This document shows, piece by piece, positions 2,716 to 55,408 of a stretch of DNA of 64,000 bases. The translations under genes and the position numbers were made by a program. The stretch is from Enterococcus faecium (GTDB taxonomy: Bacteria; Bacillota; Bacilli; Lactobacillales; Enterococcaceae), in contig NZ_CP118955.1 in assembly GCF_029023785.1 (NCBI RefSeq), positions 618,501-682,500 on the forward strand. Reading direction: 5' to 3'. Each line of letters opens with the position of its first letter. The first letter of the stretch is position 1. The notes under the pieces are model-generated. The model did not search any database and had not been told where the DNA came from. It worked only from the letters and a program-made list of their open reading frames with translations.

Positions 2716-2896
2716 AAAATAGAGGCTGGGACAGAAGAGTTTAACTCCAAGAAATAAGAAGAAATTCACGAAAATTGCTTTTCAAATTTTTGTGAATTTC
2801 AGCTTATTTCCGAAGGAGTTGCTTCTGATTCCGCCGTTTATACGTGTTTAGAGCGTGAGACAAAAGTGTTCTTTACTTTTGTCCCACGCTCAGTTT
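2716..2896. repeat. Long double-hairpin intergenic element, copy 1 (type E)
   Basis: A long imperfect hairpin runs from AACTCCAAGAAATAAG to CTTATTTCCGAAGGAGTT, with inner arms GAAATTCAC/GTGAATTTC. It is followed by a second hairpin, GAGCGTGAGACAAAAGT paired with ACTTTTGTCCCACGCTC. A near-identical copy lies inverted at 22804-22980. Both copies sit between convergent genes, so bidirectional termination is the obvious role. Confidence 0.85.
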
Positions 2897-10346: not shown

Positions 10347-10404
10347 AAGAAATAGGAAAAGAGTGAGAAACTGTCATCCTTTTGAGAAGGCAGAAAAACA
10401 CACG

Positions 10405-10442
10405 AAGGGACTATGACAAAATACGTGTCACAGTCCCTTTTT
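10405..10442. terminator. Terminator with GTGACA-type core
   Basis: AAGGGACTATGACA pairs with TGTCACAGTCCCTTT and a T-run follows. One of seven related hairpins in the window. It directly precedes the first palindromic repeat unit. Confidence 0.85.
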
Positions 10443-10448
10443 CTGAAT

Positions 10449-10812
10449 AAACGGTGTTCAATCAGCTAACCTTCGGTATTAGCTCAAAAAACAGCAAAAT
10501 ATGAGGAACTATTTTGCCGTTTGTTTCTCTAATACTCAGATCAAAACGCTGATTTCACAACCTCTTGGTAAACGGTGTTCAAAAGCTTGCATCTGCGGTA
10601 ATAAGTCCAACCAAATGAAAAATATCAGAAGCTATTTTTGTTTGGCTGTTCTTATTACTTGATGCAGAACAGCTTTTTCACAACCTCTTCCTTATACGGT
10701 GTTCTCCTGCCAGCTCCTCGGTTACCAGTCACAATATTTAATAAACATGAGGAGCTATTTTTTGAAATTGCTCCTTGTGACTCGGAGTGAAACGGCAGGC
10801 TCACGACCTCTT
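10449..10812. repeat. Array of three hairpin repeats (types A, B, D)
   Basis: Three units of about 120 bp start at 10449 (A), 10570 (B) and 10694 (D). Each begins with a form of AAACGGTGTTC and ends with CACAACCTCTT or CACGACCTCTT. In each, an outer and inner stem flank a loop carrying ATGAGGAGCTAT or a variant. The array fills the convergent space between the GNAT gene and the exonuclease gene. Confidence 0.9.
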
Positions 10813-11368: not shown

Positions 11369-11505
11369 TTCTGTAAAACCTCCTTGGGAAATTACTGTAA
11401 CATACTTTTGAAAAAAGCAAATAAATTTAACAAAAAACATAGAATTTTTTATGTAATATTTGTTGAAAAAAGCTAGTTTTTGAACTTATTCCTTGTGATT
11501 TGGAG

Positions 11506-12354
11506 TTAGATAGGGATCATGAATTCTCGGTATTAAGCCAAATTTATGCAAAGTTGTGAGGAACCATTTTCAAAAAAATTTCTTACGACTCGAAAGTAGG
11601 CGACTTTTTCACAACCTCTCCACTAAACGGTGTTCAATCAGCTGACCCTCGGTATTAGCTCAAAAAATGGCAAAATATGAGGAACTATTTTTTCCATTTG
11701 TTTCTCTAATACTCAGGTCAGAACGCTGATTTTACAACCTCTCCACTAAACGGTGTTCAATCAGCTGACCCTCGGTATTAGCTCAAAAAATGGCAAAATA
11801 TGAGGAACTATTTTTCCGTTTGTTTCTCTAATACTCAGGTCAGAACGTTGATTTCACAACCTCTCCACTAAACGGTGTTCAATCAGCTGACCCTCGGTAT
11901 TAGCTCAAAAAACGACAAAATATGAGGAACTATTTTTCCGTTTGTTTCTCTAATACTCAGGTCAAAACGCTGATTTCACAACCTCTCCACTAAACGGTGT
12001 TCAATCAGCTGGCCCTCGGTATTAGCTCAAAAAATGGCAAAATATGAGGAACTATTTTTCCATTTGTTTCTCTAATACTCAGGTCAGAACGCTGATTTCA
12101 CAACCTCTTAATAAACGGTGTTCAAAAGCTTGCATCTGCGGCAATAAGCCCAATCAAACGAAAAATATGAAGAGCTATTTTTGTTTGGCTGTTCTTATTA
12201 CTTGATGCAGGACAGCTTTTTCACAACCTCTCGATAAACGGTGTTCAAAAGCCAGTTTCTCGGTATTAAGCCAAATTTATGCAAAATGTGGAAAGCCATT
12301 TTCACAAAATTTTTCTTAATACTCGAAACTAAACGACTTTTTCACATCCTCTTT
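11506..12354. repeat. Tandem array of seven hairpin repeats (C, A, A, A, A, B, C)
   Basis: A degenerate C-type unit ends near 11620. Four A units begin at 11625, 11748, 11870 and 11992, a B unit at 12113 and a C unit at 12236, giving a period of 121-124 bp. The A units differ by only a few bases, so they are recent duplications. The last unit ends on the stop codon of exoA. No open frame spans the array. The stretch 11369-11505 between the exonuclease start and the array is A/T-rich and holds nothing else I can name. Confidence 0.92.
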
Positions 12355-13105
12355 ATTTCAAATCTAATTCTACTGGACAATGATCACTGCCCATAATGTC
12401 CGTATGGATCTTTGCATCAGCTAGTCTTGGCTCTAAATCTTTGCTCGTCAAAAAGTAATCGATCCGCCAACCAGCATTGTTTTTTCTTGAATTGAATCGG
12501 TAGTTCCACCAAGAGTAGACACCTTCCTGGGTTGGATAAAAATAACGGAATGTATCGATAAACCCGTTATCCAACAGTCGAGAAAGAGCCGCTCTTTCTT
12601 CTGGAGTGAATCCAGCATTTTTTTGATTCGTTTTCCAGTTTTTCAAATCAATCTTTTGATGAGCGACATTTAGATCCCCACACACGATGACTGGTTTTTG
12701 TTTTTTTAGATTTTCCAAATAATTATAAAAGGCTTCTTCCCATTCTAATCGGTAATCTAAACGTTTTAATTCGCTTTGAGAATTTGGCGTGTAACAGGTT
12801 ACAAGAAAGAAATCGGAATATTCCAAAGTAATCAGACGGCCTTCTGTATCATGGATATCGATACCCATTCCGTAAGTGGCATTCAATGCTGGTTTTTTAG
12901 CAAAAATCGCTGTGCCGGAATAGCCTTTTCGTTCTGCGTAATTCCAATATTGATAATAACCTGGAAGATCTAAATCAATTTGTCCTGCTTGGAGTTTCGT
13001 TTCCTGCAGACAGAAAAAATCGGCGTCTAACTCATGAAAAACTTCTAAAAAATTTTTATTTACGATGGCACGAAGCCCGTTTACGTTCCAAGAGATAAAT
13101 TTCAA
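12353..13105 (-). CDS. exoA: Exodeoxyribonuclease III
   Basis: AP endonuclease and 3'-5' exonuclease of the ExoIII/APE1 family, acting in base excision repair. Motifs: SWNVNGLRA at the N-terminus, FCLQETKLQ with the metal-binding Glu, VVCGDLNVAHQKIDL, WRIDYFLTS and the final GSDHCPVELDL with catalytic Asp-His. The start is set at TTG 13105, 10 bases after AAGGAG, giving 250 residues. The frame extends 57 bases further upstream without homology-like sequence. The stop codon overlaps the end of a repeat unit. Confidence 0.95.
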   Translation of the reverse strand: MKFISWNVNGLRAIVNKNFLEVFHELDADFFCLQETKLQAGQIDLDLPGYYQYWNYAERKGYSGTAIFAKKPALNATYGMGIDIHDTEGRLITLEYSDFFLVTCYTPNSQSELKRLDYRLEWEEAFYNYLENLKKQKPVIVCGDLNVAHQKIDLKNWKTNQKNAGFTPEERAALSRLLDNGFIDTFRYFYPTQEGVYSWWNYRFNSRKNNAGWRIDYFLTSKDLEPRLADAKIHTDIMGSDHCPVELDLK

Positions 13106-13217
13106 TAAAAGCACACTCCTTCGAATTAATTTCCTTACCTTTGCGATACTATTGTACCTCATTTTAGTAAAAAATGGTGTAAGATGAAAGTAACTAAATG
13201 ATCCAGGAGGAAAGTCG

Positions 13218-21019: not shown

Positions 21020-22534
21020 ATGAAAAAATTAGTTGCTGGTTTATTAACAGCCGTTGCACTTCTTGCTATGAGCGCATGCGGCGCAGATCAGAAAAATACA
21101 GCGCAGACAAGTTCTAGTACGAAGGAATCTGCCGAAGTATCATCAGGCGCTTCTGAACAAGTATATACAGATCCAAAAGAAATGAAAGAATCTTATGATG
21201 TCGTGATTATTGGAGCTGGTGGTGCAGGGATGGCAGCAGCTATCGAAGCAAAAGATGCTGGGTTGAATCCAGTAATTTTGGAAAAGATGCCTGTTGCCGG
21301 AGGAAACACATCTAAATCATCAAGCGGTATGAATGCTTCAGAAACAAAATTTCAAAAAGAAGAAGGAATCAAAGACTCGAATGATGCCTTCTATGAAGAA
21401 ACGCTAAAAGGTGGTGGAGGAACGAATGATAAAGAAATGCTTCGATACTTTGTCGATCACTCTGCTGATGCGGTCGATTGGCTAGATCAAAACGGTATCA
21501 AACTGGACAACTTAACGATCACTGGAGGGATGAGTGAAAAGAGGACACATCGTCCGTCTGATGGCTCGGCTATTGGTGGATACTTAGTGGAGGGGTTATT
21601 GAATAACGTCCATGAGCGGGAAATCCCTATTTTTGTCAACGCAGATGTGACAGACATTAAGAAAAATGGGGAAACGGTCAATGAAGTGACTGTACATGTT
21701 CAAGGAGAAGAACCAAAAGAGGTCACCGGAAAAGCAATCGTAGTTACCACAGGCGGTTTTGGTGCCAGCAAAGAATTTATTGAAAAATATCGTCCCGATT
21801 TAGCTGATTATATTACGACAAATCAAGAAGGATCAACTGGAGATGGTATCACCATGATTGAAAAATTAGGTGGACAAACCGTTGATATGGATAAAATACA
21901 AATTCATCCAACTGTGCAGCAGGATGAGGGGGTCTTGATTGGTGAGGTTGTTCGCGGAGAAGGAGCAATCTTGGTCGATCAAGAGGGGAAAAGATTTGTC
22001 AATGAAATGGATACAAGGGATAAAGTATCTGCAGCAATTACAGCATTGCCTGAAAAATCAGCTTATTTGATTTTTGACCAAGGCGTGCGTGATCGTGCCA
22101 CAGCTATTGAATTTTATGACCAAAAAGGATATGTCACAACTGGAAAGACAATGGAAGAATTAGCAGAAAAAATCGATTTACCAAAAGAAACACTAGCAAA
22201 AACAGTTGATGGATGGAATACGGATGTTGCGGAGAAAAAAGATGCTCAATTCAACCGTGCCACAGCCATGGAACATGACTTATCGTCTCCGAATTATTAT
22301 GCGATCAAAATCGCACCAGGAATCCATTACACGATGGGCGGTGTGAAAATCAATACGAACACTGAAGTATTAGATAAAGAAAACCAGCCAATTAGGGGGT
22401 TATATGCTGCTGGTGAAGTCACAGGTGGCTTACATGGAAACAACCGGATCGGTGGAAATTCAGTTGCGGAGATCATTATTTTTGGGCGACAAGCGGGCAT
22501 ACAAGCAGCTCGATTTGCTTCGGAAAATGAATGA
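21020..22534 (+). CDS. Extracellular lipoprotein flavoprotein, fumarate/urocanate reductase type
   Basis: 504 residues. The N-terminus is a lipoprotein signal peptide with lipobox LAMSAC (Cys20), then a Ser/Thr-rich linker to about residue 55. The FAD domain opens with DVVIIGAGGAGMAAAIEAKDAG and closes with NNRIGGNSVAEIIIFGRQAG. The active-site region has THRPSDGSAIGG, IQIHPTV and VVRGEGAILVDQEGKRFVNE, as in soluble fumarate reductase flavoproteins. No FMN-binding or heme domain is present, so an external electron donor is needed. It may act in anaerobic respiration or extracellular electron transfer outside the cell. A Rex-type box lies in its promoter. The substrate could be fumarate, urocanate or a related enoate. 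Confidence 0.85.
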   Translation: MKKLVAGLLTAVALLAMSACGADQKNTAQTSSSTKESAEVSSGASEQVYTDPKEMKESYDVVIIGAGGAGMAAAIEAKDAGLNPVILEKMPVAGGNTSKSSSGMNASETKFQKEEGIKDSNDAFYEETLKGGGGTNDKEMLRYFVDHSADAVDWLDQNGIKLDNLTITGGMSEKRTHRPSDGSAIGGYLVEGLLNNVHEREIPIFVNADVTDIKKNGETVNEVTVHVQGEEPKEVTGKAIVVTTGGFGASKEFIEKYRPDLADYITTNQEGSTGDGITMIEKLGGQTVDMDKIQIHPTVQQDEGVLIGEVVRGEGAILVDQEGKRFVNEMDTRDKVSAAITALPEKSAYLIFDQGVRDRATAIEFYDQKGYVTTGKTMEELAEKIDLPKETLAKTVDGWNTDVAEKKDAQFNRATAMEHDLSSPNYYAIKIAPGIHYTMGGVKINTNTEVLDKENQPIRGLYAAGEVTGGLHGNNRIGGNSVAEIIIFGRQAGIQAARFASENE

Positions 22535-22551
22535 AATAGAACGTAAATAAA

Positions 22552-22793
22552 AAGAGGTTGTGAAATCAGCGTTTTGACCTGAGTATTAGAGAAACAAACG
22601 GCAAAATAGTTCCTCATATTTTGCCGTTTTTTGAGCTAATACCGAGGGTCAGCTGATTGAACACTGTTTAGTGAAGAGGTTGTGAAAAAGCTGCCCTGCA
22701 TCAAGTAATAAGAACAGCCAAGTAAAAACAGCTTCTTATGTTTTTAACTTGGTTGGACTTATTACCGCAGATGCAAGCTTTTGAACACCATTT
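22552..22793. repeat. Two inverted-orientation hairpin repeats (A then B)
   Basis: Read on the minus strand, a B unit and an A unit in the same head-to-tail form as elsewhere. The A unit spans about 22552-22671 and the B unit 22673-22793. They lie at the 3' end of the flavoprotein gene. Confidence 0.88.
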
Positions 22794-22803
22794 GTTCGGA
22801 AAA

Positions 22804-22980
22804 AGAGCGTGAGACAAAAGTGTTCTTTACTTTTGTCCCACGCTCTAAACACGTATAAACGGCGGAAGCAGAAGCAACTCCTTTGGAAATTAGCTGGAAT
22901 TCACAAAAATTTGAAAAGCAATTTTCGTGAATTTCTTCTTATTTCTTGGAGTTAAACGCTTCTGTCCCAGCCTCTTTTTT
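22804..22980. repeat. Long double-hairpin intergenic element, copy 2 (type E, inverted)
   Basis: Near-identical reverse complement of 2716-2896. It contains GAGCGTGAGACAAAAGT/ACTTTTGTCCCACGCTC and the long arm pair ending AGCCTCTTTTTT. It lies between convergent genes, as does copy 1. Confidence 0.88.
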
Positions 22981-45128: not shown

Positions 45129-45170
45129 GAAGAGGGGCCGTGACAAAAATCATGTCGCAGCCCCTTTTTT
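45129..45170 (+). terminator. Terminator after the ABC exporter
   Basis: GGGGCCGTGACA pairs with TGTCGCAGCCCC, T6 run follows. GTGACA-core family; the repeat unit starts right after it. Confidence 0.88.
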
Positions 45171-45175
45171 ACAGA

Positions 45176-45358
45176 TAGAGGGTGTTCAAAAGTCAGTTTC
45201 TCAGTATTAAGTCAATTTTATGTAAAAATGTGAGAAGCTATTTTTACAAAACTTTTTTTAATACTCATAATTACTTCTTATTGCTCCTGCGGTTACTTGT
45301 CGCAATGTTTGTGAGATATTTTGTCATCGCTCAAGGCTGAACGTCTCTTTCACAACCT
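45176..45358. repeat. Degenerate hairpin repeat region (C-type half plus another unit)
   Basis: GGTGTTCAAAAGTCAGTTTCTC starts a C-type unit, with ATGTGAGAAGCTAT as apical loop and TTTTAATACTCATAA after it. The following 90 bases (CTCCTGCGGTTACTTGTCGC) resemble the left part of D-type units and end in TTTCACAACC. Confidence 0.75.
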
Positions 45359-46741: not shown

Positions 46742-46812
46742 GCGGGTGTAGTTTAGTGGTAAAATCCCAGCTTCCCAAGCTGATGTCGCGGGTTCGATTC
46801 CCGTCACCCGCT
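46742..46812 (+). tRNA. tRNA-Gly, anticodon CCC
   Basis: A 71-nt cloverleaf. Acceptor GCGGGTG pairs with CACCCGC; the D arm has AGTGGTAA; the anticodon arm is CAGC-TTCCCAA-GCTG with loop TTCCCAA, giving anticodon CCC; the T arm has GGTTCGATTCCC. The discriminator is T and CCA is not encoded. It stands alone. An inverted B-type repeat follows within 7 bases. Confidence 0.9.
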
Positions 46813-46817
46813 TAAAA

Positions 46818-46972
46818 TAGGTTGTGAAAAAGCTGCTCTGCAACAAGTAATAAGAACAGCCAAGCAAAAACAACTTCTTATGTTTTTAACTTGGATGGAC
46901 TTATTACCGCAGATGCAAGCTTTTGCGCACCGTTTACCAAGCGGTTTTGAAATCAGTGTATTGTCTTGAGTA
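46818..46972. repeat. Inverted B-type hairpin repeat plus a truncated A unit
   Basis: AGGTTGTGAAAAAGCTGC at 46818 begins a reverse B unit that ends GCACCGTTTA near 46936; a fragment with GGTTTTGAAATCAGTGTATTGTCTTGAGTAT continues as a truncated reverse A unit. It lies directly 3' of the tRNA. Confidence 0.8.
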
Positions 46973-49209: not shown

Positions 49210-49250
49210 AAAAAGGGATTGTGACAAACGTCTTGTCACAATCCCTTTTT
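49210..49250. terminator. Perfect terminator after the DUF1292 gene (GTGACA-type core)
   Basis: Two perfect 18-bp arms (49210-49227 and 49233-49250) around ACGTC, with A and T runs at both ends. The repeat array begins immediately after. Confidence 0.93.
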
Positions 49251-49253
49251 CCA

Positions 49254-49744
49254 AATAAACGATGTTCAATCAGCTGCCCCTCGGCATTCGCTCGAAAAAC
49301 GGCGAAATATGAAGAACTATTTTGCCATTTGTTTCTCTAATAATCAGGTCAAAACGTTGACTTCACAGTCTCTTCCTTAAACGGTGTTCTCCTGCCAACT
49401 CCTCGGTCACAAGTCACAATATTCAACAAACATGAGAAGCTGTTTTTTGAAATTGTTCCTTGTGACTCAAAGCTGAACGGCAGGCTCACGACCTCTTCCT
49501 TAAACGGTGTTCTCCTGCCAACTCCTCGGTCACAAGTCACAATATTCAACAAACATGAGAAGCTGTTTTTTGAAATTGTTCCTTGTGACTCGGAGCTGAA
49601 CGGCAGGCTCACGACCTCTTTCTTAAACGGTGTTCAAAAGCTTGCATCTGCGGTAATAAGTTCAACCAAACGAAAAATAGGAGGAGCTATTTTTGTTTGG
49701 CTGTTCTTATTACTTGATGCAGGACAGCTTTTTCACAACCTCTT
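49254..49744. repeat. Array of four hairpin repeats (A, D, D, B)
   Basis: Units start at about 49255 (A), 49379 (D), 49502 (D) and 49625 (B), a period of 123 bp. The two D units differ by only a couple of bases, so one arose by tandem duplication. An apparent 87-codon frame on the minus strand arises only from the duplicated D units. Confidence 0.92.
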
Positions 49745-55186: not shown

Positions 55187-55238
55187 TCTTCCACAGTATT
55201 TCGTAAAAATGTTGATGAAAAAGAAACACCGTGAATCA

Positions 55239-55356
55239 GAGGTCGTGAAAAAGCTGCCCTGCATCAAGTAATAAGAACAGCCAAACAAAAATAGCTCCTC
55301 CTATTTTTCGTTTGGTTGGGCTTAATACCGAGAAAATGGCTTTTGAACACCGTTTA
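55239..55356. repeat. Inverted chimeric hairpin repeat (B half plus C half)
   Basis: One end is B-type (AAGCTGCCCTGCATCAAGTAATAAG) and the other, ACCGAGAAAATGGCTTTTGAAC, is C-type, so the outer stem is poorly matched. The constant ends are intact. Confidence 0.8.
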
Positions 55357-55366
55357 TTCAAAAAAA

Positions 55367-55408
55367 GGGACTTTGACACGAATTTTGTCAGAGTCCCATC
55401 GGTTTTTT
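55367..55408 (+). terminator. Terminator with GTGACA-type core
   Basis: GGGACTTTGACA pairs with TGTCAGAGTCCC, then a T-run. Confidence 0.85.

Follow-up and report, generated by a model that had tools for sequence, protein, structure and literature searches.

Hairpin repeats of Enterococcus faecium, probably of the EFAR/Efa-1 kind, as candidate exchangeable mRNA 3' ends

Introduction

The Enterococcus faecalis repeats called EFAR, whose description is said to go back to Venditti et al. in 2007, reportedly measure ~170 bp and contain two stem-loops; they are also said to comprise 16 sequence types and to have empty sites that are short stem-loops. Efa-1, as described in Cozzuto et al. 2008 (PMC2267715), is 163 bp long, is present in 65 copies, is intergenic and consists of two adjacent stem-loops, and EFAR is named as an enterococcal MITE in PMC3733652. 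Here we analyse a hairpin-repeat family in a 64,000-nucleotide stretch of Enterococcus faecium DNA (the window), of which a preliminary description had been made, together with its members elsewhere in the genome and in other bacteria.

Results

Hairpin units and arrays in the window

A covariance model built from 16 window units located 21 repeat units at eight sites, in agreement with the roughly 20 units at eight sites first counted; four weaker opposite-strand matches to units already counted were left out of the 21. The left-end motif has 16 matches (at most one mismatch) against 0.94 expected and the right-end motif 18 against 1.08, counts that none of 100 shuffles reached in either case. 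We denote as S the strand on which the preliminary description read the units, and as R its complement; in R the unit reads AAGAGGTTGTGA...GAACACCGTTT, the reverse complement of the unit as first written. At the ends, where a MITE would have terminal inverted repeats, an imperfect basal stem pairs GGTGT with AC.ACC around a bulged base.

The largest array (11498..12353, R on the minus strand) contains seven units, which in R order are of types C, B, A, A, A, A and a degenerate C (11498-11620, with a degenerate left end). Its start coincides with the stop codon of ORF 12353-13162 on the minus strand, and at its R-3' end no terminator passed the score described below. The four-unit array at 49257..49744 (minus strand; A, D, D, B in S order), whose R direction opposes both neighbouring genes, is accompanied by an element terminator at 49210..49251 (GGGATTGTGACA..TGTCACAATCCC) that occupies the place of the native terminator of relatives, and the three-unit array at 10449..10812 (minus strand; S order A, B, D) adjoins a terminator-like hairpin of the element type at 10404..10442 (GGGACTATGACA..TGTCACAGTCCC), whose R test score is only 18. 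Two opposed elements enclose a terminator hairpin at 22803..22847 (GAGCGTGGGACA..TGTCTCACGCTC): a two-unit array at 22552..22793 (plus strand; R order A, B), with its R-5' end behind the stop codon of ORF 21020-22534 on the plus strand, and an E-type unit at 22857..22976 (minus strand), which has E. faecalis-type ends and the opposite orientation to its neighbour. Four further elements are single units. An E-type unit with E. faecalis-type ends lies at 2720..2839 (plus strand), where E. lactis has a native terminator hairpin; a unit with a degenerate left end at 45177..45279 (minus strand) adjoins a terminator hairpin at ~45131-45170; and a B unit at 46816..46935 (plus strand) is located beside the tRNA gene 46742-46812. 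The fourth, at 55237..55355 (plus strand), is chimeric, with a left arm of type C and a right arm of type B, and adjoins a terminator-like hairpin at 55361..55398 that falls below the strict R score; E. lactis has no unit here and retains the terminator. The ends that had been attributed to all units are shared by most of them, the exceptions being the two units of E. faecalis type (2720-2839, 22857-22976) and the two with degenerate left ends (11498-11620, 45177-45279). ORFs 49349-49612 and 22327-22617 (87 and 96 aa), which enter or cross units, are likely spurious.

Pairing is kept through different stems

In the 16 window units, the same sequences from which the structure was drawn, 93.8% of cells are paired and 22 of the 35 pairs have changed on both sides, against 31-48% pairing in slid controls; one of five measures (further pair types) is no higher than in shuffles. 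Pairing and double changes amount to 93.6% and 26 of 35 pairs for 150 own-genome units, 91.2% and 31 pairs for 103 matches from other Enterococcus loci (94 distinct rows), and 92.9% and 31 pairs for 30 matches from Staphylococcus and other families (27 distinct), these three alignments having been fitted to the model, which favours its pairing. Over all four sets slid controls reach at most 51.6%, and further pair types are not clearly above shuffles in three (window, own-genome and Staphylococcus/other families). The proposal of a mosaic hairpin family with constant ends, in which pairing is kept through different stems, is borne out. At least four stem types had been distinguished; the family exceeds four, since a type E, with a core of the E. 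faecalis kind, and rare recombinants occur in addition to A-D. The left and right arms share their nearest type in 148 of 150 units, as assessed among A-D by a rule under which E units count as B.

Wobble pairs point to the R strand

An A·C mismatch in S corresponds to a G·U pair in R, and mismatches were counted accordingly as R- or S-wobbles. Across 360 units (some duplicated between loci) there are 453 G·U pairs in R and 112 in S, while sets thinned to 175, 99 and 62 units gave R/S wobbles of 261/82, 162/42 and 107/31, respectively. In the set of 99 units 25 of the 35 pairs favour R and four favour S, and 94 R-wobbles stand against 39 S-wobbles when the three largest pairs are excluded. The G·U share in R is ~5%, compared with 6.6% in nine tRNA genes, which contain no A·C. 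Strand-biased tolerance of G·U within kept base pairs is what would be expected if the R-strand RNA must fold, and RNA-level selection on R is thus likely, if not proven, on this comparison of sequences. The strict within-type bias is only suggestive: distinct single changes in E. faecium number 46 versus 32 (p 0.14 by a binomial test, and p 0.076 by Fisher's test relative to unpaired columns), and in E. lactis 32 versus 16, a set that is not independent of E. faecium. It is possible that strand-biased mutation adds to the wobble signal. The scarcity of G·U had been considered as a sign of a role in DNA, a view that was reversed by counting A·C against G·U.

The suspected RNA role is, therefore, likely on the evidence of the wobble bias; the strand concerned would most likely be R rather than S, on which it had been sought. 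This bears on the suggestion of a ribosome binding site in the apical GAGGAG loop, which does resemble one in many window units. The loop sits on the wobble-disfavoured S strand, its sequence differs in E. faecalis and Staphylococcus and, with R as the RNA-relevant strand, it would read CUCCUC, which is not such a site; we find this interpretation hardly credible.

It could be argued that the complementarity of the arms is kept by DNA events rather than by RNA function, through template switching in imperfect palindromes or through an attC/REP-like recombinase acting on hairpin DNA. Such events would fit the observations that whole stems differ as blocks, that G·U in the S reading makes up 0.3-1.2% of paired cells and that transversions account for 14 of the 31 distinct double changes within types in E. 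faecium. DNA repair, however, would not be expected to enrich G·U on just one strand, and the wobble count had already weakened this alternative; furthermore, internal loops that are asymmetric remain so in different families (by eye), and chimeras with unmatched arms persist. On these grounds we judge it improbable.

Genome-wide census and terminators

The E. faecium genome (2.67 Mb, two contigs, rated 100% complete) contains at least 150 units, 85 on the plus and 65 on the minus strand, among the best 150 candidates of the covariance model. In 55 sources around units, window included (476,651 bases, ~18% of the genome), an HMM detected 219 units, 191 of them full length, in 94 arrays of one to seven units. 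When contig G000:C1 is divided into bins of 267,223 bases, 15 of the 150 listed units fall in bins 4-6, the middle of the contig.

The R-3' flank of the arrays often comprises a linker like ATTCGGAAA followed by a hairpin like GGGACTGTGACA..TGTCACAGTCCC. A terminator score of at least 30 in R was obtained behind the R-3' end of 52 of the 94 arrays, the hairpin starting a median of 6 nt past the array. The same flank read in S passes in 45 of 94, because the terminator hairpin is two-way, while on the other flank only one array (R) and three arrays (S) of the 94 pass, as do 18 of 300 random pieces. The motif TGTGACA..TGTCACA adjoins units in 36 of its 40 matches, within own-genome loci that were themselves chosen around units. 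The 42 arrays that fail the R score, 11498..12353 among them, count against the explanation that we favour below.

Most arrays follow the stop codons of co-directional genes

With genes called by a simple ORF rule, the gene at the S-3' end points towards the array in 76 of 94 cases, such that in R the array follows a co-directional gene. The stop codon is within 20 nt of the array in 58 of these 76, compared with a mean of 16.0 and a maximum of 30 in 2000 random placements within the same gaps, and the earlier assignment of units to gene 3' ends is thus upheld. Convergent gaps account for 32 of 94 arrays versus 31 of 197 array-free gaps (p 7e-4), divergent gaps for two of 94 versus 45 of 197 (p 8e-7) and, between tandem gene pairs, 44 of 60 arrays lie in the R direction. 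Read in R, arrays usually start a few nucleotides after a stop codon, and would thus supply the 3' end of the mRNA of the gene concerned. The 18 arrays without a co-directional R-upstream gene, which include the clearest gain (49257), again count against our preferred explanation.

In other species 60 of 86 arrays are R-co-directional (E. faecalis 16/20, genus-mates 18/28, other named Enterococcus 26/38), a count from which three locus-edge arrays were dropped and in which the genus-mate and named-Enterococcus sets share arrays. A harsh removal of shared flanks, at the cost of three separate E. faecalis arrays that merely have terminator sequence in common there, leaves 50 of 73, and 36 of these 50 arrays lie no more than 25 nt from a stop codon.

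Units in place of native terminator hairpins at three sites

The relative G005, which we infer to be E. lactis, has a counterpart 96% identical to one window gene. An E. faecium ddl primer site that the window's genome contains exactly does not occur, even with two mismatches allowed, in G005 or G009, the pair of relatives examined for it. Both flanks of 40 of the 94 arrays were located in E. lactis DNA, in stretches chosen near E. lactis units. Unit number by HMM differs between the species in 29 of these 40 entries, among which neighbours 38/39 and 88/89 each share one gap, and is equal in 11. Six entries are devoid of units in E. lactis, and three of the six carry a native terminator hairpin instead. 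At three clean sites (window 49257 and 2720, and L062:13390) E. lactis has an unrelated hairpin plus T-tract, and E. faecium one or more units plus a terminator. L042:2553 and window 55237 look like losses in E. lactis, with remnants or the element terminator kept there, and window 22857 is part of a composite.

At site 49257, as judged by eye, the gene is followed in E. lactis and 13 other genomes of the genus by a short native terminator, and the array is missing, the HMM giving a single weak match (13.7 bits) ~570 nt away in G002. As all 14 relatives lack it, the array at 49257..49744 is, on this comparison, a gain in E. faecium. This is the only one of the three replacements that is polarised; outside E. 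lactis, site 2720 gave partial matches of 67-76%, which were not used.

A plausible rival is that the unit is a selfish MITE moved in trans by a transposase, its fold serving to join the ends and gene 3' ends being the least harmful place of insertion. High copy number, imperfect inverted ends and presence or absence between sister species all accord with such an element, as does the excess of pneumococcal BOX, RUP, SPRITE and IS between convergent genes, which is read as tolerance in the available part of PMC3049150. A DNA element would not, however, be expected to show strand-biased wobble, and the distance to the stop codon is far tighter than under random placement. In addition, no target-site duplication is visible by eye at the three clean sites, where a hairpin has been replaced instead. 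An autonomous partner with the same ends, sought as a split unit with an insert of more than 150 nt, was not encountered among 937 HMM matches in fetched loci (~18% of this genome). A match to a named family with transposase-driven mobility had been held to speak against the preliminary description; a named family does probably exist, but no transposase came to light in the scan for split units in the fetched loci. The selfish MITE is, in our view, unlikely.

Entry at terminators, together with a selected RNA fold, also brings to mind SINE-like copying, in which a reverse transcriptase would copy the folded RNA and use terminators as targets. Group IIC introns target terminators, and RVT_1 matches occur in six of 12 unit-bearing genomes tested. 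There is no RVT_1 match, however, in this genome or in G005, G002, G011, G004 and G091, all of which bear units, and RVT_1 is also found in two of five genomes without a unit match. RVT_1 thus shows no association with the units, and we consider this route very improbable.

Where arrays differ by one unit in the alignments examined, the difference mostly falls on unit boundaries, whether at either extremity of the array or in its interior; site 16 resembles a crossover within like units. The proposal that newcomers enter only at the terminator end is contradicted by gains or losses inside arrays. Among 63 multi-unit arrays, E units occupy the place nearest the stop codon in 12 of 16 cases (5.3 expected; reached by none of 2000 shuffles) and D units last in 17 of 28 (9.1 expected, p 0.0015); unassigned partial matches also gather at the last place (12/16). 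Unit order is given for E and D only because single-linkage typing merged A and B.

Distribution across taxa

Units are present in all 15 genomes of the genus, with 19 to at least 150 matches each (best 150 candidates per genome), and in 71 of 395 genomes sampled from the order, 51 of them in the window's family (best nine candidates per genome). In the class sample 15 of 398 genomes match at E 1e-6: four in the window's family and 11 in family f17, which we take for Staphylococcaceae because named contigs of Staphylococcus microti and S. rostri hold members. The matches in these two species (74.7 and 77.5 bits, among the matches listed) look like real members. Members in families f17 and f8 have similar ends and different stems, and their units are in places arranged in tandem. 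In the f17 genomes G771 and G604 (L320-L323, L327, L328) the unit seems to sit within a larger repeat whose flanks are alike, and it is not directly preceded by the end of a long open frame. A pattern match in a Chlamydiae MAG (L117), which has no HMM match, looks like chance.

Genome G293, taken as E. faecalis on an exact match to the ddl pattern (which one other genome matches with one mismatch), has 20 matches, of which 17, judged by eye and including imperfect cases, have a second hairpin of ~50 nt beside the 120-nt unit, ~170 bp together. Units at two of its loci (L264, L269) contain an unrelated insertion of ~50 nt or a substituted arm. The genome labelled E. faecalis 13-SD-W-01 (G003; L114 and other KE351xxx records) falls in the window's genus and not with G293, and is probably misnamed.

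In the plasmid collection three E. faecium plasmids match, and records under other names look mislabelled; the 'Klebsiella pneumoniae' plasmid records CP069367.1-CP069369.1, which match an enterococcal unit, are probably mixed assemblies. One window unit matches 124 phage records, all labelled Listeria (for example, OR847129.1 and OR848433.1). The 20 listed are unannotated records named 'Listeria phage LM ...', two of them at 100%, and look like mislabelled enterococcal DNA. Against Rfam the units gave no match, apart from four weak ones below gathering scores.

Discussion

The explanation that best accommodates these data, and which we hold with moderate confidence, is that the repeat is a module of the EFAR/Efa-1 kind that replaces terminators, whose R-strand RNA would be under selection and would form mRNA 3' ends. 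In the proposed module a single multi-stem hairpin of ~118 nt is joined by a short linker to an intrinsic terminator of its own. Transcribed in R, it would constitute the 3' end of the upstream gene's mRNA, where hairpin and terminator may give that gene a stable, well-terminated 3' end, acting possibly as a terminator or as a barrier to exonucleases or to convergent transcription. A place at terminators would then be harmless or useful, so that the module could persist while spreading. Recombination between the constant junctions of ~25 nt would fit the exchange and loss of units within arrays, while entry into new sites would need a hairpin- or terminator-directed step.

A wider proposal, which we advance tentatively and consider possible if on balance doubtful, is that these repeats represent a cross-order family of portable 3'-end RNA cassettes. 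The R-strand fold would predate the split between Enterococcaceae and Staphylococcaceae or have spread between them, stems could change freely, and the cassette would move by a hairpin-directed swap for resident intrinsic terminators, such that genes acquire exchangeable mRNA 3' ends. If this were true, the arrays would be layered records of successive waves, with E near the stop codon and D near the terminator.

If our interpretation is correct, dozens of E. faecium genes would have mRNA 3' ends that are mobile and modular and are selected at the RNA level, while intrinsic terminators would be a mobile target. The effect of the 3' hairpin on mRNA, and the enzyme or repair route that swaps hairpins, would then be open to experiment. 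The finding further connects a repeat of E. faecalis with E. faecium and Staphylococcus. In literature searches for a name or description of the family we did not find arrays, strand-biased RNA selection, polarised terminator replacement or cross-order spread in print.

ERIC and Correia (NEMIS) are likewise palindromic miniature elements whose transcripts are reported, in the available portions of PMC2229807 and PMC10969869, to alter mRNA fate. In contrast with the present repeats they are Gram-negative and linked to RNase E or RNase III, and the same portions make no mention of terminator replacement. The pneumococcal BOX and SPRITE are also small repeats over-represented between convergent genes, modular in the first case and terminator-like in the second. 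They differ, on comparison with their description in the accessible part of PMC3049150, in that BOX is composed of A-B-C modules and SPRITE of an 18-bp duplex with a U-rich tract; strand-specific RNA selection is not mentioned in that part.

Compared with EFAR and Efa-1, the E. faecium repeats form same-orientation arrays of units with different stems, and have mostly other constant ends. The E. faecalis form, in which the unit and the second hairpin together span ~170 bp, resembles the adjacent stem-loop pair of the 163-bp Efa-1. Two traits that EFAR is said to have are also encountered: the empty sites reported to be short stem-loops have a parallel in the three of six E. lactis entries with a native terminator hairpin, and the exchangeable sequence types in types A-E and their mixed arrays. 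The preliminary description knew no name for the family, which probably does have one, as the E. faecalis two-hairpin form matches Efa-1 and the reported architecture of EFAR. Likened by architecture and description, the repeats are thus probably of the EFAR/Efa-1 kind, because E. faecalis carries the unit within a two-hairpin repeat of ~170 bp, as in Efa-1.
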